Origin: Salsipaludibacter albus | Lineage (GTDB): Bacteria > Actinomycetota > Nitriliruptoria > Nitriliruptorales > Nitriliruptoraceae | DNA length: 64,000 bases | Direction: 5' to 3' | NCBI RefSeq assembly: GCF_019798055.1 | Contig: NZ_JAHOPH010000002.1 | Location: 62,001 to 126,000 of the forward strand | Part shown: in pieces, positions 13,956 to 24,623 of the stretch | How the letters are laid out: every line of letters starts with the position of its first letter | How positions within the stretch are numbered: the first letter of the stretch is position 1 | Translations under genes and position numbers: made by a program | Notes under the pieces: model-generated | The model's input: the letters and a program-made list of their open reading frames with translations, nothing else | Databases searched by the model: none | Told to the model about the DNA's origin: nothing

Positions 13956-16219
13956 GGGGTCGGATGCCACTCCACCTCACCGGGCTGGCGGTCGTCGTCG
14001 CCCTCCTGGCCGCGTTGTCGCTGGTCCCGGCGATCGGCTTCGGCAGCGTCCTGGCCGGCTGGTCGTTCCTGTGGGCACCGATCGTGGCCGTGGTGGCCGC
14101 GGGTGCGGTCACCGTCTTCGCCCAGTGGCGCCGGTTGCTGGTCGGCGAGTCGATCGCCCTGTCGCTGGTGATGTTCCTGCTGGTCGGTGTCGTGGCGATC
14201 GGTGGCAGCCCCACGCCGGCGGCGGTCAGCACGTTCCTGCACGGCCTGGTCGACGGCTGGGCCGAGCTGCTGACCTCGTTCGCGCCGGCCGACGTGACCC
14301 CGACCTTCCTGGTGCTGCCCTACACGCTGGCGTGGCTGGGGATGCTGACCGGTGGCGAGATCCTGCGTGGCACGACCACGCCCGGGCTGCCGGCGCTCGG
14401 ACCGCTGGTGATGCTCGGCGTGTCGGTGCTGTTCTCGATCGAGAACCGCGCGATCGCGATCACCCAGGGGGTGGCGGCGGTCCTGTTGACCCTGGTGCTG
14501 GGGCTGGTGCAGCAGGCCCAGCAGCGCACGACCCGGTCCGACCTGACGACGGGGTCGAGCCACCGGTGGCGGGGTCGCGGCCTGGTCGCCGCGGTCGCGT
14601 TGCTGGTGCTGGTCGTCGCCCTGGCGCCGGTGCTCGGACCCCGCCTGCCGGGGGCCGACGCCAACCCCCGCTTCGAGCTGCGCGAGCGACTCGAGCCACC
14701 GTTCAACCCGCTCAACCTCCCGTCCCCGCTCGCCCAGGTCAAGGGCGAGCTGGAGGGCGACCGCGCCGAGGAGGTCGTGCTGCGTGTGACGACCGACGAG
14801 CCCGTGCGGCGCTGGCCGGTGGCGGTCATGGGCAGCTACGACGGGCGCGTGTGGACGGTGGCCGAGTCGGCCGACAGCGGGGCGGGGCAGTACCGCCCGG
14901 TCGACACCCAGTTCCCGGCCGTCGACGACGGCGAGGTGGACCTGTCCGTGGACCCGGTCGAGGCGACCGTGCAGGCCGTCGACCTCCGGGACAACTGGCT
15001 CCCCACCCCCGGCTGGCCACGCCGACTCACCAGCCCCGACGAGCTCGACGTGCGCTACAACGAGGTGACCGGCAACGTCGTGCTGCCCCAGCGGGTCCCC
15101 GACGGCGCCACTTGGACCGTCACCGCCGTGCCCCGGGTCGAGGTGGACGACGAGGCCATGGCCGGCGTCGACGTCGCCCTCGAGGAGGCCGGGTCCGACC
15201 TGGCGGCGGTGCCACCCGTGCTGCGGACCCTGGCCGGCGACCTGGTCGAGGGGCTCGACCCGGGCTGGGAGCAGGTCGCGGCGATCCGGGACCTGCTGCT
15301 GGAGGACGGCTACTACGACCTGTCGCCGGAGACCCCGCCGGGCCACAGCTTCTTCCACCTGTCGCGGTTCCTCGAGGACCCCGAACGGATCGTCGGGTTC
15401 GAGGAGCAGTACGCCGCGTCGGCTGCCGTGCTGGGGCGACTCGCCGGGGTCGGCGTCCGCGTGGTGGTCGGCTACGACGTGCCCGCCGAGCGCTTCGACG
15501 ACCGCCCCACGGAGATCCGCGCCGGCGACCTGTCGGCATGGGTCGAGGTCCGGGCGGACGGGTTCGGATGGGTGCCGGTGGACGTCACCCCGACCGACGA
15601 GTCCGCTCCCGAGGCGTCCGAGGCCACCCAGACGGTCGAGGACGTGGCGATCCCGAACCCCCCGCCGCCTCCGCCCCCACCGCCACAGGTGGAGCGACCC
15701 GAGCAGCCGCCGGTCGAGGAGGAGTCCGAGGAGCCCGAGGAGGACGACGAGGACGAGGCGGCCACCGGACCGAACCTGCCGATCCTCGTCGCCGGCGTGG
15801 GCATCGGGATGCCGCTGCTGGCGCTCGGGCTGTTCATGGCTGTCGTGCTGGCACTGAAGGCCCGCCGACGGCGCCGCCGCGAGCACGCGCCGGACGCCGC
15901 GACCCGGCTGTCCGGGGCGTGGGAGGAGCTGCGCGACCGCTTCGACGAGCGCGGGCTGCGGGCGACGCCCACGGCGTCTCCCCGCGAGGTCGCGTTCGCC
16001 GTGGCCGACCGCTTCCCGTCGGCGCGTGGCGTGATGGTCGACCTCGCCGACCGGGTGGACCGGGGTGCCTTCCACCCGCTGCCGCCCGACGACGAGACCG
16101 CGGCCGGTGCCTGGACGCTGAGCGACGAGGCCAGCCGCGAGCTGGACCGGGACCGGTCGACGTGGGAGCGTTGGCGCGCCAGACTGAGCGTGGCGCCACT
16201 GCGCCGGAAGGACACGTGA
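13952..16219 (+). CDS. Multi-pass transglutaminase-fold protein lacking catalytic Cys and His
   Basis: A 755-residue protein. About six membrane helices (residues 5-230) are followed by an external region with a transglutaminase-like domain (about 440-550), a Pro/Glu-rich linker, another membrane helix (about 610-635) and a cytoplasmic tail resembling DUF4129. In active relatives the domain reads G-Y-C-E-Q-F-A and H-A-W-x-E-V. Here the first is G482-F-E-E-Q-Y-A (Cys replaced by Glu484) and the second L-S528-A-W-V-E-V (His replaced by Ser). The Asp of WVPVDVTP (544) remains. It is therefore probably a non-enzymatic binding module. Start and stop overlap both neighbours. Confidence 0.85.
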   Translation: MRGRMPLHLTGLAVVVALLAALSLVPAIGFGSVLAGWSFLWAPIVAVVAAGAVTVFAQWRRLLVGESIALSLVMFLLVGVVAIGGSPTPAAVSTFLHGLVDGWAELLTSFAPADVTPTFLVLPYTLAWLGMLTGGEILRGTTTPGLPALGPLVMLGVSVLFSIENRAIAITQGVAAVLLTLVLGLVQQAQQRTTRSDLTTGSSHRWRGRGLVAAVALLVLVVALAPVLGPRLPGADANPRFELRERLEPPFNPLNLPSPLAQVKGELEGDRAEEVVLRVTTDEPVRRWPVAVMGSYDGRVWTVAESADSGAGQYRPVDTQFPAVDDGEVDLSVDPVEATVQAVDLRDNWLPTPGWPRRLTSPDELDVRYNEVTGNVVLPQRVPDGATWTVTAVPRVEVDDEAMAGVDVALEEAGSDLAAVPPVLRTLAGDLVEGLDPGWEQVAAIRDLLLEDGYYDLSPETPPGHSFFHLSRFLEDPERIVGFEEQYAASAAVLGRLAGVGVRVVVGYDVPAERFDDRPTEIRAGDLSAWVEVRADGFGWVPVDVTPTDESAPEASEATQTVEDVAIPNPPPPPPPPPQVERPEQPPVEEESEEPEEDDEDEAATGPNLPILVAGVGIGMPLLALGLFMAVVLALKARRRRRREHAPDAATRLSGAWEELRDRFDERGLRATPTASPREVAFAVADRFPSARGVMVDLADRVDRGAFHPLPPDDETAAGAWTLSDEASRELDRDRSTWERWRARLSVAPLRRKDT

Positions 16220-16869
16220 TGACCGACGGCGACCACCGCCGTGACCCGTCCCGGGAGCCCGACGACGCCCGGGACCGGCCCGCTGACCCCCTGGACGACG
16301 ACCGGACCGTGGCGGCCGACGACCTCGACGCCCTGCTGGCGGAGGTCGACGAGATGCCTCCGGAGCCGGTGGACGACCTGGCCGACGACCGGACCGTTGC
16401 CGCCGACCCGGCGCCGGACCCCGCCCCGATCGACGACGACCTGACGGTCCCGGCCGACGACCTGCCGCCGACGACCTCCGACCCGGCGCGGGAGCGGACG
16501 GGCGACGACCCGTGGATCCGCCCCACCCCGGACCGGCCGGCGACGCCTCCCGCGCAGACCTCGCCGGCCCCGACCACCTCCGAGCCGACCGCTCCGGCGC
16601 CCACCGCCTCAGAGCCGCCTGCGCCCACCGAGCCGGCTGCGCCCGAGCCGACGGACGACCACACCGTCGAGTCCGGGACCAAGCACCCGGTGGTCGCACC
16701 GGCGGGGGCCGCGCCCGCCATGGTCGACGACGACGAGCGATGGCGCCCACCCACCCGGACCGGCGGAGCGCTCGCGACCGGGAGCACGCGGTCGTGGCCG
16801 GCCTTCCTGGTGCCTGCCGTCGCCATCGTGGTGGTCGCGGCGATCATCCTGCTGGTAGTGCTGTTGTGA
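16219..16869 (+). CDS. Tail-anchored disordered protein with repeated DDxTV motifs
   Basis: A 216-residue protein. Residues 1-190 are acidic and Pro/Thr/Ser-rich with little predicted structure. The last 25 residues are a strongly hydrophobic helix (AFLVPAVAIVVVAAIILLVV), giving a C-terminal membrane anchor with the bulk in the cytoplasm. Four near-identical sites occur: DDDRTVAADD, ADDRTVAADP, DDDLTVPADD and TDDHTVESGT. Threonines in acidic surroundings followed by a hydrophobic residue are typical kinase targets and FHA ligands. Lying between the transglutaminase-like gene and the PP2C and FHA genes, it is a good candidate for a membrane docking platform. This is inference; no homologue is recognised. 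Confidence 0.75.
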   Translation: MTDGDHRRDPSREPDDARDRPADPLDDDRTVAADDLDALLAEVDEMPPEPVDDLADDRTVAADPAPDPAPIDDDLTVPADDLPPTTSDPARERTGDDPWIRPTPDRPATPPAQTSPAPTTSEPTAPAPTASEPPAPTEPAAPEPTDDHTVESGTKHPVVAPAGAAPAMVDDDERWRPPTRTGGALATGSTRSWPAFLVPAVAIVVVAAIILLVVLL

Positions 16870-17663
16870 GCCCCACGCGACTGGACGACGACGACACCAT
16901 TCCGACCGACGGCCAGGCCGCGCTGGCCGACCTCGCCGCCGGGCTGGAGCTGGTCGTGGCCGACTGGGGTGTCGCCAGCGCGACCGGTCGGGTCCGCGAC
17001 GTCAACGAGGACGCGTGGGGCCAGGACGGCCGACGGTTCGTCGTGGCCGACGGGATGGGCGGCCACGAGGGCGGTGCACTCGCCTCGCGCACCGCGGTCC
17101 GCGCCTTCCTCGCCGGTGATGCGGAGGCACCCTGGGCCGAGCAGGTCGCGGTCGTCAACGACCGGGTCCGGGCGGCTGCGGACCAGGCCGGGACACCCGG
17201 TGCCGGGACCACGATGGTCGCGGTGCGGGTGCGGGGCCGAGGTGCCACGATCGCCTCCGTGGGGGATTCGCGGGTCTATCGCTGGCGCGGCGGCACGGTC
17301 GACGCGGTGACCGCCGACCACACCCTGGCCAGCGACCTGCTCGCGGTCGGCGTGAACGCCGACCGACAGCGGCGGCGTGGCGTCCGGGTCAGTGGCCTGA
17401 CCTCGTTCCTGGGGGTCGAGCCGGCCCGGTTGCGGGCCGACGTCACCGAGGTCGAGCTGCGCCACGACGACCGGCTCGCTCTGGTCAGCGACGGCATCCA
17501 CGGGCAGCTGGACCGTGCCACGGTGGCCGGGCTGGTGGGACGGGACAGCCCCCAGGCGGCGGCCGACGCGCTGGTCGCGGCCGCCGAGTCGGCCGGTGGG
17601 CGGGACAATGCCACCGCGCTGGTCGTCGAGCTGGCGCTGGACGCGACGGAGGACGGATCATGA
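16866..17663 (+). CDS. PP2C-family Ser/Thr phosphatase
   Basis: A 265-residue PPM/PP2C phosphatase. Metal- and phosphate-binding motifs are visible in order: RDVNEDAW, VADGMGGHEGG, GTTMVAV, SVGDSRVYRWRGG, LVSDGIHGQL and GGRDNATALVV. It starts at a GTG inside a GTGA overlap. The first 15 residues contain DDDDTIPTD, the same acidic-Thr motif as the neighbouring tail-anchored protein, so the phosphatase itself may be a phospho-target. It presumably reverses phosphorylation by the kinase encoded at 3657-5072. Confidence 0.92.
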   Translation: MSPTRLDDDDTIPTDGQAALADLAAGLELVVADWGVASATGRVRDVNEDAWGQDGRRFVVADGMGGHEGGALASRTAVRAFLAGDAEAPWAEQVAVVNDRVRAAADQAGTPGAGTTMVAVRVRGRGATIASVGDSRVYRWRGGTVDAVTADHTLASDLLAVGVNADRQRRRGVRVSGLTSFLGVEPARLRADVTEVELRHDDRLALVSDGIHGQLDRATVAGLVGRDSPQAAADALVAAAESAGGRDNATALVVELALDATEDGS

Positions 17664-19060
17664 GCGAGCGCGACGGGACCGGGATCCGGGTGGCCGGGCT
17701 GCAGGTCGCGCCCGGCGAGGGACGACTCGCCCGCAGCGACGACGCGGTGCTGTTCGTCCCGGCGTGGGACGATGGTGCGGACGCGCTGCTGGCGGCCTTC
17801 GCGGACGCCCCGGCCGGTGGCGCCGTCGACGCCGTGACCACGGCCGTGGTCGAGCACGAGTTCGCGGTGCCCCCGTTCGCCTGCCTGGCGTGGTCGTCGG
17901 TGCTGTCGCTGGTCGTGTTCGGTGACCTCGCGGTCCAGACCGACCATCCGGCGGTGCCGCTGTTGTCCGGCGCCGGGTCACGCACCTGGGTCGAGCACAC
18001 CCTGCGGCGTGCCGCCGACCGCGTGGTGGTCACGGTCGACCCGCCCGAGGGCGACCCGCCCAGCGACCTGGTCGCCGGGGTCGTCCCCGCCGCCGGCTTC
18101 GCCCTGGAGCTGGTCGGGACCACGGGGCCTGCCAGGGGGCCTGCGACGGGGCCGTCCGCGGGGCATGCCGATGCGGCCCCGGAGCCGGCGAGCACGCACG
18201 AGCCCGAGGTCGTCACCGGCCACGCGGGACAGGTCGTGTCCGGCTCCGCCCCGGTCCCGGCCGTCGACCCGGAGCCCGCGTCTCGGCCGGACACCGACGC
18301 CCCCTCTCCGTCCCTGGACCCCGAGCCCTCCCCGCCGCCTGCGTCGTCGCGCCCGGAGTCGTCACCTTCGTCGGCCTCGGACGTGTCGCCGTCCCGGGAA
18401 CCGTCATCGGACGACCTCGACCTCCCACCGGCCGTGGGGACCCAGGACCTCGACTCCCTGGAGGCCATTCGGTCGGCCGTCGTGGGCGACCAGTCCGCCG
18501 CCGCCGCGTCGGGCACCGCGCCACCCGCGCCGCCCGCCGACGCGACGAGCGAGGACGCCGAGACGGACGGCGGAACCGCACGACTCGACACCCCGACGAC
18601 GGTGCTGGGCGGGCCGGCGCTGGTCGAGGCCAGCACCTGCCCCCAGGGCCACCTGACCCCGGCCGGATCGACGTCCTGTCGGGTGTGCGGCGTGGGCATG
18701 GCCGGAGATGCCGACGTCACGACGGTCCGTCGACCCCAGCTGGGCGTGCTGCGACTCGACGACGGCAAGATGCTGCCGCTGGACCGCAACTACCGGATCG
18801 GTCGTCGCCCGTCGGCCGACGACACCGCGACTGCGGCCCAGATCGAGGGCGAGAAGATCTCTCGGACCCACGTCGAGGTGGTCCTGCGTGGCTGGGACGT
18901 GCTCGTGCGGGACTGCGACTCGACCAATGGCACCTGGGTGGCCTCGGGACCGGACGAGCAGTTCCGCCGGGTCGACCCCGACGTCCCCGTGCGCATCGAG
19001 CCGGGCGCAGTCGTGCGCCTGGACCAACGGACCTTGACCTACGACGGCCCCGCCCGCTGA
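17660..19060 (+). CDS. Zinc-ribbon and FHA-domain protein
   Basis: A 466-residue protein. The N-terminal 160 residues form a compact unknown domain, followed by a long Pro/Ser/Asp-rich linker to about 300 that includes TPTTVLGG. A zinc-ribbon-like stretch follows with CPQGH and CRVC (about 325-350). The C-terminal FHA domain has YRIGRRP, the phospho-Thr contacts SRTHVEV and STNGTWV. It starts in an ATGA overlap with the phosphatase and ends the coupled operon. It presumably reads threonine phosphorylation made by the local kinase. Confidence 0.88.
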   Translation: MSERDGTGIRVAGLQVAPGEGRLARSDDAVLFVPAWDDGADALLAAFADAPAGGAVDAVTTAVVEHEFAVPPFACLAWSSVLSLVVFGDLAVQTDHPAVPLLSGAGSRTWVEHTLRRAADRVVVTVDPPEGDPPSDLVAGVVPAAGFALELVGTTGPARGPATGPSAGHADAAPEPASTHEPEVVTGHAGQVVSGSAPVPAVDPEPASRPDTDAPSPSLDPEPSPPPASSRPESSPSSASDVSPSREPSSDDLDLPPAVGTQDLDSLEAIRSAVVGDQSAAAASGTAPPAPPADATSEDAETDGGTARLDTPTTVLGGPALVEASTCPQGHLTPAGSTSCRVCGVGMAGDADVTTVRRPQLGVLRLDDGKMLPLDRNYRIGRRPSADDTATAAQIEGEKISRTHVEVVLRGWDVLVRDCDSTNGTWVASGPDEQFRRVDPDVPVRIEPGAVVRLDQRTLTYDGPAR

Positions 19061-19148
19061 CCCGTTCCCGTCGCTCCGACGCCCCGGTCGACCGACGTTC
19101 CGCCCCGACCCCTGCGTCGCCGACCCTCCCTCGGATCGATGCCCCACC

Positions 19149-19226
19149 CGATGTGAGTCGCGCTTCCCGATGTGATCTCGACGCGAGGACGCGTCCAGGT
19201 CACATCGCGATCGTGAAGTCACATCG
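19149..19226. repeat. Symmetric array of four CGATGTGA half-sites with hairpin core
   Basis: CGATGTGA occurs at 19149-19156 and 19168-19175. Its reverse complement TCACATCG occurs at 19200-19207 and 19219-19226. Both pairs have a 19-bp period, and both the inner and outer pairs are centred at 19187.5. The core GACGCG-AGGA-CGCGTC (19180-19195) extends the inner inverted repeat to about 17 bp per arm with two non-Watson-Crick positions. It could be an operator for a tetrameric or doubly bound regulator, a structured terminator, or a dispersed palindromic element. Confidence 0.6.
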
Positions 19227-19264
19227 CGAGGAGGTGGCGGGCGCGCGGGAGGTGGCGGGACAAT

Positions 19265-19308
19265 CCCCCGCTACGGGTGATGGACCCGTCCGGAGCCCGC
19301 CGTACCGT
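19265..19308 (+). promoter_or_regulatory. Candidate promoter of the EsxA-like gene
   Basis: The 16-mer CCCCCGCTACGGGTGA (19265-19280) matches the region-4 dyad consensus at 12 of 16 positions. It is followed by 22 bp and TACCGT (19303-19308). The block also resembles the upstream region of the first WXG100 gene (123-166) over about 30 bp. A perfect ACGGGT-GATGG-ACCCGT inverted repeat spans 19273-19289. Confidence 0.45.
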
Positions 19309-19392
19309 TCCATCCAGGAGCTCGGAGCAGCCGGGTTCGCCAGCCGGAGGCGGCCGACCCGCCCCCCCACCAACCACACGAGGAGCAGGACC

Positions 19393-19656
19393 ATGGCACA
19401 GTTGGGTGCAGACGTCGAGCAGCTCGCCGCGCTGTCGCGCAAGTTCAACGAGGTCTCGGGCCAGATCGAGAGCATGGCCCAGCAGATCACCTCGCAGGTC
19501 GAGAGCGCCTGGTGGCAGGGCCGGGACGCCGACCGCTTCCGCAGCGAGTGGCGCAGCCACCACAGCCAGCTCAAGAACGCGGCCCAGCGGCTCGAGCAGG
19601 AGGCGCAGCGGGTCAAGAAGCAGGAGCAGCAGCAGCGCCAGACATCGGGCGCCTGA
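19393..19656 (+). CDS. WXG100-family protein (EsxA-like)
   Basis: An 87-residue protein of canonical WXG100 size. Two helices flank the turn motif W-W-Q-G (SAWWQGRDADRF), and the C-terminal tail is Gln/Lys-rich. The ATG at 19393 has AGGAGCAGG 3-12 bases upstream. It is followed by a strong convergent terminator hairpin and then by the 3' end of the EssC-type ATPase gene. It is the most typical secretion substrate of the three WXG100 proteins in the window. Confidence 0.93.
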   Translation: MAQLGADVEQLAALSRKFNEVSGQIESMAQQITSQVESAWWQGRDADRFRSEWRSHHSQLKNAAQRLEQEAQRVKKQEQQQRQTSGA

Positions 19657-19676
19657 GCAGAGCCACGCAACGTTGT

Positions 19677-19709
19677 CGACCGCCGGACGGGCGTCCCGTC
19701 CGGCGGTCG
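19677..19709. terminator. Bidirectional terminator hairpin
   Basis: A perfect 15-bp inverted repeat, CGACCGCCGGACGGG (19677-19691) with its complement (19695-19709) and a 3-base loop. It lies between the convergent WXG100 and EssC-type genes. There is no long T tract on either side. Confidence 0.8.
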
Positions 19710-19716
19710 GCTCGTG

Positions 19717-22700
19717 TCAGTGGGCGACCTGGACCAGGGTGAGCGTGCCGCCGTCGGAGTGGATGGCGCGCCCGACCGGCCAGGCCTGACGGGTCCGGGG
19801 CAGGTCGGCGTTGGCGAGGCTGGCATCCATGTCGCTGTCGGGCTGGAGCAGCAGGATCCGGCGACCGCGCTTGAGCGTCGACATGACGTCGGACCACGCC
19901 GAGCGGGCCAGCGACACCTCGCAGGTCGCGACCAGGGTCACGTGGGGCTCGCGCATCAGTTCGTGCAGCGGCAACTCTGCGGGGCCCTCGAACAGTTCGT
20001 GGACGTCGTCGACCAGCACCAGGATCGGCTCGGGTCGGGCCGCCAGGGCGCGCACCGCCACCTCCACGTCGTCGGCGCCGACGTGTTGGGCGACCCCGCG
20101 GGGCAGCCCGGGCACCGGTCGCTTGCCCGCGAACACCACGACCGGCACCCCGGCCCGGCTGGCGCTGGTCGCCAGCGTCGCGACGGTGGTGGTCTTGCCG
20201 GACCGTGCCGGCCCGGTGATCAGCAGGTCGTCGGACGGGTCGAGGGTGAAGGGCTCGAGCCGGTCGGTCAGCCCGATGCCCAGCCTGCCCGTGCCGTTGG
20301 TCGCAACCTCGGCCAGCGCGACCGTGTCGCCGAGCACCCGCACCTCGGGCCCGGGCCGGGCGCCCCGACGTTGGAGCGTGGCCCCCAGCCGACGCAGGGT
20401 GGTCGCCTGGCCGGCGGTGGTCAGGTCGTCGCCCGCCAGCGCGACCTGCACGACGTGCTCGCCGTCGACGGCTCGGCCCGCCGGCTCGTCACCGTCGACC
20501 AGGTCGGCGTCCACGCCCAGGTTGAGATACTCGTCGAGCGTCGCCAGGCGCAGGACCAGCCGCCGGCCCACGGTCGAGGTCAGCATCATCGGGAACGAGT
20601 TGCGACGCGTCCCGGTCAGCACGAAGTGGACCCCGACCCCGCGACCGTCGCCGACCAGGCGCAGCAGCAGGTCGAGCCACTGGCCCCGGTCGATGCGCTC
20701 CCAGGCCTGCACGAAGGTCTCGAAGCCGTCCACCAGCACCAGGATGCGCTGCATCGCCTCGCCACTGTTGCGGCGGTACTCGGCCAGGGAGGCGGCCTGG
20801 TGACGCATGAAGCGCTCGCCACGCTCCTCGACCAGCTCGGCCAGGTCGCCCAGCATCCGGGTCACGCGCTCGTGGTCGTCGCCGGTCACCAGGCTGCCGA
20901 CCTGCGGCAGGGGGCTGAGCATCTCGAGCCCGCGTCCGGCCGCGTCGATGCCCAGGATGCCGACCGGGTGGTCGTCGTCGGTCAGGCACGCGGCCGTGGC
21001 GATGGTGCGCAGCGCGGCGGTCTTGCCGGAGCCGCCGACGCCGTAGACCAGCATCGAGCCGTCCCGGTCGGGGTGGAACGCGGCGACCTGCTGCGACTGG
21101 CTGGCCGGGTCGTCGCGGACCCCGATCGGCAGGCGGTCGTCGCGTCCCGTGCGGGGCAACCTCAGGAGGTCGTAGTGCTCGGCCAGCGGGTCCAGCCAGG
21201 GCCGGCGGGGGACGGGGGAGCCCGTGTCGCGGAAGGCGGTCGTGATGGTCGTGACCAGCCGTTCGAGGTCGGTCGGTCCGGTGTCGGTGTCGGTGGCCCG
21301 GGTGGGGTCGGGCCATGGGCGGACCGTGCCGAAGCCGACCGAGGCGACCTCCAACTCGACTCGCTCGGTGTCCTCGGCGCCGGTGTGCCCACCGACGTAG
21401 CCGGCCTGGAACGAGATCAGCTCGCTCGGCCCGAGCCGGGCGACGCCGCGGCCGGGGGTGGAGCGGTCGATGGTGGCGGCGACCGGTGAGTCCAGCACGT
21501 CGGTCGACTCGTCCTCGGACGCGACCCGCAACGCCACCTTGAGGTTGGTGTTGGCGCGGATGTTGGGCGTGATGACCCCGGCGGGACGCTGGGTCGCGAG
21601 CAGCAGGTGCAGGCCGAGGCTGCGCCCCCGCTGGGCGACGTCGACCACGCCGTCGACGAACTCCGGCACCTCGGTGGCCAGCGCGGCGAACTCGTCCACC
21701 ACGATCACCAGGCTGGGTGGGGTGAGGGGGTGGCGCTCCTTCTCCATCTGGAGCTGGTCCTTGGCGTTGGCCTCGTTGAGGAGGTGCTCGCGCCGGTGCA
21801 GCTCGGCCCGCAGCGACGTCAGGGCGCGACGCACCAGTGCCTGGGTGAGGTCGGTCACCAGCCCGACCGTGTGGGGCAGGTGGGTGACGTCCTTGAACGC
21901 CGCACCGCCCTTGTAGTCCACCAGCAGGAAGTTGACCTTGTCGGGACTGTGGGTCGCGGCCAGTGCGACCAGCAGGCTCTGGAGGAACTCGGACTTGCCG
22001 GCGCCGGTCGTGCCCGCGACCAGGCCGTGCGGGCCGTCGTGGCGCAGGTCGATCGAGAACACCCCGCCGGCACCGGCACCGACCGCTCCCCGCAGCCCAC
22101 CCCCGGGCTGGGACTCGCCCCACCGCGCCCGGACGACGCCGGGGCGGTCCAGCAGGTCGGGCCCACCGAGCAGGTCGACCAGCGAGGCGCGGCCCGGCAG
22201 CCCGACGTCCCGGGACTGGCGGGACGACACGTCCACGATCGGCGCGAGGTCGCGGGCCAGCCGTTGGGCGGCGGCGCGGTCGAACAACTCGACCGGGACG
22301 TCGTCGAACGTGCGGGCCTCGTCGACCTCGGCGATGCGGGCGTTGGCGCCACCCGGCGCGATGTTGACGACCGCGCCACAGGTCTTGGGGATCCGCCGGC
22401 CCGACGACGCCACCCACACGACGTGGATCCCGGCCCGGGGTCCGACCTCCAGCAACCCGGTCAGCCGGGCCCGCTCCAGGGGCAGGTCGTCGTCGACCAC
22501 CACCACGACGTGCGGCGTCGTGACGACGTCGCGGCTGTCGCGGTCGTCGCCGATGCGCTGCTCGATGGTGGTGCCGAGGTCCTTGAGCAGCGCGAGCGCG
22601 TCGTCGACGGTGGCGGCGAGGTGGTTGACCCCGATCGGGCTGAGCGGCGCCCGGGTGTGGGGGAGCCAGGTCAGCCACTCCCAGTCGGCCCGGCGTGGCT

Positions 22701-23991
22701 CCGACAGCAGGGCGCACACCACCACCTCGGAGGGGGAGTGCAGCGCCGTCACCTGGGCGACGATCGAGCGGGCGGCGTGGGACGCGAACGGGTCGGGACC
22801 GGACACGCCGATCGAGCCGGTCCGGGCCAGCCCGACGGCGACCGGGACCGGGGGCAGGTCGGCGTAGCGACGGGGGATTGCGGCCAGTTCCTCGCGCAGC
22901 TCGCGGCCACCGCTGGTCGGCAGCGCGATGTCGATCCGGGCGGGCTGGGGGGCCAGCCCGAGGCGGACCTGGAGGAAGTCGGGGTCGCCGGGCTCGCGCT
23001 CCCACAGGCGCGGGGACAGGTCGCGGACGTGGTCGTCGAGCTGGTTGACCGCGGGCGAGGCCGCGAACCGGGCCTCGACCTCGGTGTCCTGGGCCGACTC
23101 GATCGCTGCGACGGCGCGGTCGCGGTCCTCCTCGAAGACCTCCAGGCGTTCCGCGTAGTCGGCCCGGCCGCTGCGCTTGGCGTCCCAGAACGACCCCATG
23201 ACCATCAGGGGGCTGAGCGCGAAGAAGACCATCGTGAGGATGCCCATCCCGAACGCCCACATGATCCCGCCCATGGCGAGGGGGGCCAATGCGGCCGCCA
23301 TGGGGAGGCGTTGCTTGCCGGGCTTTTCGGGTGGGGCGGGCAGTTCGATGCGGGCCTGGGGCAGGGGTCGCTGGATGCGGGGTGGCCGGTTGAACTCCAC
23401 CGACGGACCCAGCACGTCCCCCAGTGCGGCCTCGGCCTGCTCGACGAACAGGGTGGTGTCGCCGATGCGGATCTCGTCGCCGTTGCGCAACCGGCGCGGG
23501 GCGACCACCGCCACCCCGTTGACGGCGGTGCCGTTGGTCGACCCGAGGTCCACCACCTCGATGACGTCGGACGCGACGAGCTTGGCGTGGCGCCGGGACA
23601 GCAGGTCGTCGTCGATCGCGACGTCGACGTCAACCGAGCGACCGATGATGGTCTCGCCGGCGGGGATCTCGACCCAGCGCGGGGCACTGTCGGTGGTGAC
23701 GACGCGGGCCCGGCCGACCAGCCGACGCCGGCCGGGGTCGCGCAGTCCGGAATCGGGGGCGAGCCGGACCGCGTCACCGGACTGCAGGTCGGCCTGGGCC
23801 AGTGGCAGGTCGCGGGCCAGCGTGGCGCGGGTGCGGCTGAGCCGTTCGAGCGTCGCGGCACCACCCCACGTGACCGGGTACCGATCGACGAGGCGGTCGA
23901 CCAGGTCGCCCACGGTGGTGCGGTCGTCGAACGACGCCAGCAGGTCGGTGGTGGCGTCGTCGTGGCCCAGCACGAAGCGCAGCTCGAACAT
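19717..23991 (-). CDS. EssC/EccC-type FtsK-SpoIIIE ATPase with ubiquitin-like and FHA domains
   Basis: A 1424-residue motor of a type VII secretion-like system. Residues 1-80 resemble a YukD/ubiquitin-like fold ending in SGDAVRLAP. An FHA domain follows (about 105-185: IIGRSVDVDVAI, LSRRHAKL, LGSTNGTAVNG). Two adjacent membrane segments lie near 227-263. Three FtsK/SpoIIIE-like domains follow, with Walker A motifs GTTGAGKS (about 659), GVGGSGKT (about 985) and GPARSGKT (about 1262). Walker B of the first is LVIVVDEF. The ATG at 23991 is preferred because GGGAGGTG lies 6 bases upstream; a GTG at 24000 overlaps the upstream stop but has its Shine-Dalgarno too close. The FHA and YukD-like fusion resembles Firmicutes EssC/YukBA more than mycobacterial EccC. 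Confidence 0.9.
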   Translation of the reverse strand: MFELRFVLGHDDATTDLLASFDDRTTVGDLVDRLVDRYPVTWGGAATLERLSRTRATLARDLPLAQADLQSGDAVRLAPDSGLRDPGRRRLVGRARVVTTDSAPRWVEIPAGETIIGRSVDVDVAIDDDLLSRRHAKLVASDVIEVVDLGSTNGTAVNGVAVVAPRRLRNGDEIRIGDTTLFVEQAEAALGDVLGPSVEFNRPPRIQRPLPQARIELPAPPEKPGKQRLPMAAALAPLAMGGIMWAFGMGILTMVFFALSPLMVMGSFWDAKRSGRADYAERLEVFEEDRDRAVAAIESAQDTEVEARFAASPAVNQLDDHVRDLSPRLWEREPGDPDFLQVRLGLAPQPARIDIALPTSGGRELREELAAIPRRYADLPPVPVAVGLARTGSIGVSGPDPFASHAARSIVAQVTALHSPSEVVVCALLSEPRRADWEWLTWLPHTRAPLSPIGVNHLAATVDDALALLKDLGTTIEQRIGDDRDSRDVVTTPHVVVVVDDDLPLERARLTGLLEVGPRAGIHVVWVASSGRRIPKTCGAVVNIAPGGANARIAEVDEARTFDDVPVELFDRAAAQRLARDLAPIVDVSSRQSRDVGLPGRASLVDLLGGPDLLDRPGVVRARWGESQPGGGLRGAVGAGAGGVFSIDLRHDGPHGLVAGTTGAGKSEFLQSLLVALAATHSPDKVNFLLVDYKGGAAFKDVTHLPHTVGLVTDLTQALVRRALTSLRAELHRREHLLNEANAKDQLQMEKERHPLTPPSLVIVVDEFAALATEVPEFVDGVVDVAQRGRSLGLHLLLATQRPAGVITPNIRANTNLKVALRVASEDESTDVLDSPVAATIDRSTPGRGVARLGPSELISFQAGYVGGHTGAEDTERVELEVASVGFGTVRPWPDPTRATDTDTGPTDLERLVTTITTAFRDTGSPVPRRPWLDPLAEHYDLLRLPRTGRDDRLPIGVRDDPASQSQQVAAFHPDRDGSMLVYGVGGSGKTAALRTIATAACLTDDDHPVGILGIDAAGRGLEMLSPLPQVGSLVTGDDHERVTRMLGDLAELVEERGERFMRHQAASLAEYRRNSGEAMQRILVLVDGFETFVQAWERIDRGQWLDLLLRLVGDGRGVGVHFVLTGTRRNSFPMMLTSTVGRRLVLRLATLDEYLNLGVDADLVDGDEPAGRAVDGEHVVQVALAGDDLTTAGQATTLRRLGATLQRRGARPGPEVRVLGDTVALAEVATNGTGRLGIGLTDRLEPFTLDPSDDLLITGPARSGKTTTVATLATSASRAGVPVVVFAGKRPVPGLPRGVAQHVGADDVEVAVRALAARPEPILVLVDDVHELFEGPAELPLHELMREPHVTLVATCEVSLARSAWSDVMSTLKRGRRILLLQPDSDMDASLANADLPRTRQAWPVGRAIHSDGGTLTLVQVAH

Positions 23992-23996
23992 CGACG

Positions 23997-24623
23997 TCAC
24001 CTCCCGTCGGGGGTCGGGCGCGGCAGGGTCGCGACCAGGGTCGTGGCGGCCCGGTCGTGCAGCACCTGCAGGTCGCCGCCGGCGTCGGTCACCTGGCCAC
24101 GAAGCAGGTGCAGGCCCATCCCATCGCCGGTCGCGTCGGGCCGGTGGTCGGACCCGTCCTCGCCATGGTGCAGCCTGCCGGTGGACCGCGCCACCACGGT
24201 GACCTCGGTGTCGTCGGTGTCGGCGTGCAGCTCGAGCAGCCCGTCGACCCGGTGTGCGGCGGTGTTCGCGGCGGCCTCGTCGACCAGTGCCACGACGGCG
24301 GCGGCCACCGGCGGGTCCACGGACGCGTCGCCGGACCTCGCGCCGACCTGCACGGTCAGCCGCCCGGCGTGGCGCCTGCGGGCCTCCTCGGCCGCGTCGG
24401 CCAGCACCCGGTGGACGTCCGCGACGCCGTCGTCGTCCGGGGGATCACGCAGCAGTCCGCGGGCCAGGTCGTGCGCCCGGTCGACTGCGTCGCCGGCCGC
24501 GTCGACGTCCCCGGCGTCCAGCCGTCGGCGGGCGTCGACCAGGGTCGGGACCAGGTGGGTGTGCACGGTCGCCCGCAGCGCCGCCAGCCCGGGCGCCCCG
24601 TCGGGCGGGGTCGGGTCAGCCAC
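23997..24623 (-). CDS. Histidine-kinase-like ATPase, soluble
   Basis: A 208-residue protein with no membrane segment or input domain. The N-terminal half is helical with a possible phospho-acceptor region (VHTHLVPTL). The C-terminal half has a GHKL-type fold: N box ALVDEAAANTAAH and G box GDGMGLHLLRG. It starts at a GTG at 24623 that overlaps the end of the response-regulator gene by 8 bp, and its stop lies 5 bp before the EssC-type start. The partner is clearly the response regulator encoded just upstream. It could be a kinase or an anti-sigma-like ATPase; the lack of a clear H box makes kinase activity uncertain. Confidence 0.75.
   Translation of the reverse strand: MADPTPPDGAPGLAALRATVHTHLVPTLVDARRRLDAGDVDAAGDAVDRAHDLARGLLRDPPDDDGVADVHRVLADAAEEARRRHAGRLTVQVGARSGDASVDPPVAAAVVALVDEAAANTAAHRVDGLLELHADTDDTEVTVVARSTGRLHHGEDGSDHRPDATGDGMGLHLLRGQVTDAGGDLQVLHDRAATTLVATLPRPTPDGR

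Follow-up and report, generated by a model that had tools for sequence, protein, structure and literature searches.

REPINs are composites of repeat units. In REPtrons, REP palindromes stand on both sides of a tnpA_REP gene (RAYT, HuH/Y1) and are also scattered over intergenic regions, and each such gene has its own palindrome (PMC6006769; PMC8266576). The antitoxin AbiEi and the related Rv2827c were reported to bind two and four inverted repeats, respectively (PMC7319586), and MTES_1575-type Vsr restriction endonucleases (REases) associated with a winged helix-turn-helix (wHTH) were proposed to be defence proteins, with giant HEPN fusions among them (PMC3710099). So far, the HuH/Y1 REP transposase is the one enzyme type to which REP palindromes have been linked; the arrangement described here is the same but involves a nuclease family unrelated to that enzyme. 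The accessible open-access literature, which leaves subscription journals mostly outside its scope, contained no report of AbiEi, DUF559 or MTES_1575 genes bracketed by palindromes and none combining DUF559 with an inverted repeat.

A four-site palindromic array in the window

The window, i.e. the whole 64-kb stretch of DNA analyzed here, corresponds to C12:62001-126000 of its source genome (G000; 4.25 Mb in 79 contigs). Within 78 bp of it (19149–19226), CGATGTGA occurs four times, twice on the plus strand and twice as its complement, around a shared center at 19187.5, and both pairs have a 19-bp period (pitch). Site 1 (outer left, 19149–19156, plus strand) shows a single T>C within GATGTG over the 17 genomic copies described below and is followed 19 bp further by site 2 (inner left, 19168–19175, plus strand). 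The minus strand carries site 3 (inner right, 19200–19207) and, 19 bp past it, site 4 (outer right, 19219–19226). The 24-bp center (19176–19199) contains the hairpin GACGCG AGGA CGCGTC in the window copy and is 1 bp longer in the full copies of the congener. Outer and inner sites are separated by a left outer spacer of the ..GCAS-type arm (19157–19167, plus strand), degenerate in the window copy, and a right outer spacer of the ..GATCS-type arm (19208–19218, minus strand). The whole element conserved over 17 copies spans 19142–19233, comprising the 78-bp core and about seven partly conserved bases per side.

These four are the sole copies of CGATGTGA in the 64-kb window. Since shuffled sequences contain on average 2.5 copies per whole window, four of them in 78 bp with exact symmetry are far from chance. 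An earlier sequence-only reading had described the four half-sites with exact two-fold symmetry, 19-bp period and the same center, had judged this geometry unlikely by chance and had noted a core hairpin. All three points hold: the coordinates are identical, the geometry recurs 17 times in the genome, and the core of the window copy folds with −54.2 kcal/mol (RNA model; z −6.6).

The element is located between the genes of an FHA-domain protein of 466 aa (17660–19060, plus strand) and a WXG100-like protein of 87 aa without a Pfam match at E ≤ 1e-4 (19393–19656, plus strand). Both belong to a gene run at 13964–24000, which also includes a PP2C phosphatase and, on the other strand, a 1427-aa protein resembling an FHA/FtsK-type ATPase as judged by eye. 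This run looks like a type VII-like secretion locus, and the phospho-signalling genes and the WXG100 gene beside the element appear to be incidental context. Weak Rfam matches far under the gathering scores, to DUF3800-XI at 19257–19299 and Guanidine-II at 18046–18092 (both minus strand), are probably due to chance.

Copies of the element across the source genome

Searching G000 for site pairs at 19-bp pitch and allowing up to three mismatches, we obtained 29 + 29 matches, compared with 1 + 1 for the reversed pattern. At up to two mismatches, 34 of the 35 matches fall within 17 full four-site elements, and in every one of these the second pair follows exactly 51 bp after the first. The sequence-only reading had proposed this genome search for pairs with a 19-bp period and had named a dispersed palindrome, recognizable by many copies at unrelated places, as the third of its possible readings; the 17 copies at unrelated places bear this reading out. 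The window contains a single, solitary copy of this palindromic element, which is dispersed and extragenic.

Alignment of the 17 copies revealed a conserved unit longer than CGATGTGA, namely CGATGTGAGTT. Identity between copies amounts to 93% in the half-sites, 79% in the GTT columns (12 columns adjoining the half-sites), 53% in the other spacer positions and 34% in the flanks (chance 30%), with partial conservation extending about 7 bases past the outer sites. The element is not truly symmetric: the outer spacer tends to end with ..GCAS in one arm and with ..GATCS in the other. Since about half of the spacer positions vary between copies, the proliferation is not recent. The closest relative of the window copy is found at C3:97823, one of the two copies bracketing a nuclease gene (see below), and these two bracketing copies form the most similar pair in G000. 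At one contig end (C6:63; L034:38-165), a perfect 25-bp inverted repeat flanks a copy that is itself imperfectly palindromic, which is perhaps a contig-end fold-back, or real.

Spread and turnover in related genomes

The sole congener sampled, the metagenome-assembled genome (MAG) Nitriliruptorales bacterium LH_M21 (G030), carries the element as well, with 8 + 9 two-site matches versus 17 + 17 in G000. After merging of the contig-end duplicates C34/C143 and C118/C132, nine distinct copies remained, and their center is 1 bp longer (offset 48 versus 47 in G000). In an alignment of the 26 copies from both genomes, each copy has its nearest relative in its own genome (26/26). The rest of the 396 genomes sampled from the phylum were without the element, the remaining nine positives being single three-mismatch matches. 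An exact three-site pattern was found in G000 alone among 36 genomes of the order and 66 of the class, the congener being missed through the 1-bp difference; in genome and viral contig collections, from which the own and near genomes may be absent, it matched 0 stretches each. A looser inverted-pair pattern yielded 25 stretches. Among the 17 listed, the four-site array occurs in two of LH_M21 alone, and we read the others as simple hairpins or chance.

Four solitary loci of G000 (C1:341268, C8:89113, C49:6371 and C2:14937) have both flanking genes in order on one G030 contig, and at none of them (0/4) does G030 contain the element. Three of the corresponding G030 gaps are short, with about 88, 50 and 79 bp versus 251, 195 and 266 bp in G000, while the fourth is longer. 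This comparison covers the informative loci only; at the others, the flanks lay on different contigs or far apart, or a single flank was found. At the C36 locus, both the element and an adjacent NUDIX gene are absent from the matching G030 stretch and, conversely, G000 lacks the G030 copy at C152:330. Divergence between the two species is too great for a target duplication or a clean insertion edge to be read from the alignment of their intergenic gaps. With respect to the earlier suggestion to look for the same element in related species, nine copies exist in the congener, none of the four comparable solitary sites is common to both, and the sequence is species-specific.

Contigs of G030 break at elements (L139, L140, L142, L146), one copy forming the ends of both C34 and C143 and another those of C118 and C132; MAGs therefore probably contain more copies than are counted. 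A dispersed palindrome of different make was seen in Kocuria coralli, which has three closely similar 50-bp hairpins (GATGTGAGTTGAGCCGCC...; L084:7285-7334, L085:922-971, L091:6361-6410). In Mammaliicoccus sciuri, four 32-bp hairpins with GATGTGAGTT arms lie in A+T-rich surroundings (L074, L075, L077, L080) and are possibly terminators or a repeat.

A nuclease gene bracketed by two copies

Outside the window, the gene for a 303-aa protein of G000 (L033:8007-8918) has one copy on either side (C3:97823 and C3:98988), and its G030 orthologue (59% identical) is likewise bracketed by two copies. Both cassettes occupy the same neighborhood, but in G000 the cassette follows the genes for proteins of 571, 70 and 308 aa and precedes that for 939 aa, whereas in G030 it is located between the 571-aa and the 70-aa gene. 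AbiE systems have an adjacent AbiEii nucleotidyltransferase toxin; at L033 and L141, the space between the nuclease gene and its repeats is free of other genes, and the Pfam-assigned neighbors at L033 are a LysR regulator and a PEP carboxylase.

Pfam profiles place AbiEi_4 at residues 7–53 (E 0.003) and PF18741, the MTES_1575 REase, at residues 205–301 (E 1.1e-5) of the 303-aa protein, both below the curated cut-offs; NCBIfam gave no match. Over 36 homologues, the REase was assigned to 29, AbiEi_1 to 12, AbiEi_4 to 10 and DUF559 to 3, and PADLOC AbiEi models to up to 35. Residues G185 and D237 are invariant and E248, H255, D264 and W276 are conserved to at least 90%, a pattern which we take to fit a Vsr-like nuclease. 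The best match to a solved structure is weak (3r3p 'Mobile intron protein', E 0.037) and presumably represents the EDxHD homing enzyme I-Bth0305I. Altogether, the profiles suggest an AbiEi-like winged-helix N-terminus joined to a Vsr/MTES_1575-type nuclease C-terminus. Four further, more distant paralogues are encoded in G000. Judging by its position and the bracketing pattern of its family, on which the pairing rests, this protein on C3 is probably the cognate protein of the element.

Bracketing is common in the nuclease family

In the order, 25 of 36 genomes encode homologues of the 303-aa protein, with 49 matches in total. For each gene, 350 bp on the left and on the right were compared by local alignment, with a score of at least 19 as threshold. 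Of the 49 matches, 42 entered this flank test, including the query gene and its orthologue, while the other seven had short flanks or no retrieved sequence. The threshold was reached by 28/42 homologues (31/42 at a score of at least 17) compared with 0/103 control genes from G000 and 0/99 from G010 (one at 18). In another actinobacterial class, 197 genomes were sampled and 157 showed matches; of the 30 loci listed, 17 scored at least 19. Pooled, 45/72 homologues share their flanks versus 0/202 controls (p 5e-33), the controls stemming from two genomes (G000, G010) and the homologues, mostly from drafts and MAGs, being chosen by similarity to the query family. Shared flanks are lacking in 27/72 homologues; with redrawn gene ends, they are present in 41/72 and lacking in 31/72. 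A score of at least 19 was reached by 16 of 240 random windows drawn from loci with homologues; the 15 listed fall at or near homologues, as read from their positions.

The shared blocks vary between genes, many of them being visible palindromes. By a strict score, 8 of 41 blocks are strongly palindromic as a whole versus 2 of 300 random 45-mers, a low count that is in part explained by the many blocks that are arrays or extend past the palindrome. Blocks start at a median of 16 bp past the stop codon and end at a median of 103 bp ahead of the start; 29 pairs are direct, 9 inverted and 3 either. Beside two homologues, long direct arrays with 38-bp and 19-bp pitch (L165:1109-1350, L186:3799-3900) show the same lattice as the window element.

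In a Tsukamurella record, the palindrome TGCGGTGGAT-N21-ATCCACCGCA stands on both sides of EL451_RS09515 ('DUF559 domain-containing protein'), and two of three such homologue genes are bracketed. The two DUF559-annotated genes there have a shared flanking repeat, but EL451_RS09230 (L331:6170-7135), annotated as type IV toxin-antitoxin AbiEi-family antitoxin, has none. Plasmid records contained one homologue, and phage records none of the one query used.

Dispersal of the cognate palindromes and possible routes of spread

We further looked into the dispersal of palindromes belonging to other members of the family. In G010, which consists of a single contig, a near-palindromic 15-mer gave 43 + 41 matches with at most one mismatch, forming 25 clusters in which copies are often 38 or 61 bp apart, whereas its congeners G012 and G013 have 1 + 1 and 2 + 1 matches. 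In G009, a 44-bp palindrome pattern occurs five times, twice at the gene and three times elsewhere, and it is absent from three congeners. Around a second paralogue of G000, five repeat copies surround the gene and three are located elsewhere. In 400 kb sampled from G330, the repeats of three bracketed homologues occur at the gene only, save two four-mismatch matches for one of them (one in the reversed control), and in 150 kb of Tsukamurella the palindrome is confined to the gene flanks. Since these two samples show no solitary copies, palindrome dispersal is not general.

Overall, the data are best read as a REPtron-like system with a nuclease unrelated to the HuH REP transposase. The AbiEi-like winged-helix domain would recognize CGATGTGAGTT half-sites, with several molecules on the four-site array, which is plausible because the known targets of AbiEi-type proteins are two or four inverted repeats adjacent to the gene encoding them. 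The Vsr/EDxHD-like nuclease domain would cut or nick at or near these sites, and repair or recombination would then copy the element, or element-gene-element, into new intergenic places. Solitary copies may be non-autonomous derivatives or scars after loss of the gene between two copies. Recognition, cleavage and the copying route or movement of the element are inferred. Homing-like spread of the element by the nuclease cannot be separated here from an origin of solitary copies by gene loss between direct repeats.

More broadly, the palindrome-bracketed nuclease family resembles a type of selfish or mobile DNA that has received little notice. With slightly less than even confidence, we propose that such selfish units are widespread in actinobacteria, each consisting of one wHTH-Vsr nuclease gene with a palindromic recognition array of its own on both sides and spreading the gene and/or the bare palindrome by nuclease-driven repair, with specificity rediverging in nearly every lineage. 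If true, this would assign a function to many genes with an AbiEi antitoxin or DUF559 annotation, in that solitary AbiEi antitoxins and DUF559 proteins would be the mobilising enzymes of selfish units. It would also provide a large set of natural wHTH/recognition-site pairs and make the spread of short palindromes testable with a second, independent enzyme.

A variant of this explanation, compatible with it, takes element-gene-element as the mobile unit and the solitary copies as traces of recombination between its two repeats, much like solo LTRs, with no separate movement of the element. The mostly direct orientation of the bracketing repeats, the close similarity of the two bracketing copies of G000 and the existence of bracketing without dispersal are in agreement with such scars. 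However, the 15 solitary copies in G000 and about 25 solitary clusters in G010, with one such bracketed gene each, would require many lost insertions, and the inner array is conserved even in otherwise well diverged solitary copies. We regard the variant as unlikely.

It is quite unlikely that the element is an ordinary MITE, or a REP of another transposase, adjoining the nuclease gene by accident. Miniature elements are typically dispersed, turn over and have species-specific sequences, and the parent of a MITE may be lost. Yet Y1/RAYT, the one transposase family searched (PF01797), had 0 matches in G000, while the same profile matched in 5 of 14 control genomes, and different repeats bracketing 45/72 homologues are not expected by accident.

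Position of the copies relative to genes

All 17 copies in G000 are situated between predicted genes and none within a gene, the genes being called with our own codon-usage script and no annotation. The 16 copies with two neighbors fall into nine tandem, seven convergent and zero divergent gaps; element-free gaps of at least 100 bp comprise 50 tandem, 7 convergent and 31 divergent ones (n = 88). A similar distribution was obtained for the G010 palindrome: none of its 25 clusters is in a gene, and the 24 orientable clusters divide into 15 tandem, 8 convergent and 1 divergent, against a background of 47, 9 and 30 (n = 86). The deficit of divergent gaps is significant in both genomes (Fisher p 0.0025 for G000 and 0.0020 for G010; 9e-6 pooled). 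Scanning of 30 neighbor proteins identified adenylosuccinate synthetase, PEP carboxylase, ScpA, ResB, a plastocyanin-like protein, a glutaredoxin, a proline racemase and others, with no common functional theme among these 30. The placement is REP-like and unlike that of a regulon.

These data bear on the idea of an operator, in which a transcription factor would bind the four half-sites cooperatively at the promoters of a regulon with 17 sites, among them that of an autoregulated wHTH-nuclease gene. The rigid 19-bp pitch with conserved half-sites and variable spacers does resemble protein sites, one copy lies upstream of the nuclease gene, and promoters of AbiEi-type wHTH genes contain inverted-repeat arrays to which the encoded proteins bind (PMC7319586). 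Against this, divergent gaps hold 0/16 and 1/24 of the copies compared with 31/88 and 30/86 of ordinary gaps, 7/16 copies lie between convergent genes, the neighbors are functionally unrelated, another copy is found downstream of the nuclease gene, and the sites are not shared between congeners (0/4). Promoter placement at related genes is thus not what we observed, and an operator function is highly unlikely.

Hairpin formation

In view of the stable fold of the window copy and the location of copies at 3' ends and between convergent genes, we also considered a structured RNA or a bidirectional terminator. The outer spacer arms, however, form 93/187 complementary pairs within copies, while reshuffled arms form 112.8 on average (4999 of 5000 shuffles at or above the observed value). 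This complementarity lies below the shuffled level because the element has two kinds of arm, and such anti-covariation disfavors a selected RNA hairpin. Moreover, the element had no match to an Rfam family at E ≤ 1, the stem of the window copy has no T run after it, and unrelated sequences recur at the nuclease genes, so that an RNA or terminator function is extremely unlikely. Among the three readings offered by the sequence-only reading, the dispersed palindrome is upheld, whereas the operator (0/16 divergent) and the RNA element (anti-covarying spacers) are not.

Analogues such as parS and matS are known for chromosome-architecture sites, but a site of this kind bound by a nucleoid protein, albeit likewise intergenic, conserved and multi-copy, is hardly credible for an element which is present in 2/396 genomes, turns over between congeners and brackets a nuclease gene for no reason that this explanation provides.

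Comparison with known systems

Homing endonucleases, free-standing or EDxHD/Vsr-like (I-Bth0305I; PMC6083498), resemble the present family in the Vsr-like fold suggested by profile and in being site-specific nucleases tied to their own spread. Here, in contrast, repeats are found at both ends, no intron or intein and no insertion in a conserved gene was seen, and the similarity to 3r3p is weak. MTES_1575 Vsr proteins share the REase family and the wHTH association with the 303-aa protein; they differ in being giant HEPN fusion proteins, and the accessible part of their description mentions no repeats (PMC3710099).

The N-terminal wHTH is related by profile, though below the Pfam cut-offs in the query, to AbiEi antitoxins of the type IV AbiE systems, including Rv2827c (PMC7319586). 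Unlike these, the protein described here has a nuclease C-terminal part, the bracketed units at L033 and L141 contain no partner gene, and the repeats also occur downstream and, in some genomes, dispersed. With REPINs (PMC3116915), the element has in common that it is miniature and non-coding. Both are inverted composites of short repeat units, but G000 is without a RAYT.

A further parallel is the REPtron. Membership among REPtrons proper, RAYTs or REPINs is disfavored, with 0 HuH/Y1 (PF01797) matches in G000, and the putative enzyme is instead a wHTH plus PD-(D/E)XK/Vsr-type nuclease. The sites are multi-unit arrays, several with 19- or 38-bp pitch, whose spacers show no hairpin covariation; as to the single-strand stem of REPtrons, the window copy folds (z −6.6), yet the spacers anti-covary across copies. 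Dispersal was also not found for every nuclease gene. On the other hand, a palindrome-flanked gene is present in G000 and G030 (the 303-aa gene) and, as shared flanks, in 45/72 homologues, and intergenic dispersal is observed in G000 (17 copies), G010 (25 clusters) and G009 (five copies). In common with REPtrons, a solitary gene is bracketed by palindromes, its cognate palindromes are located between other genes, and each gene has a palindrome family of its own.
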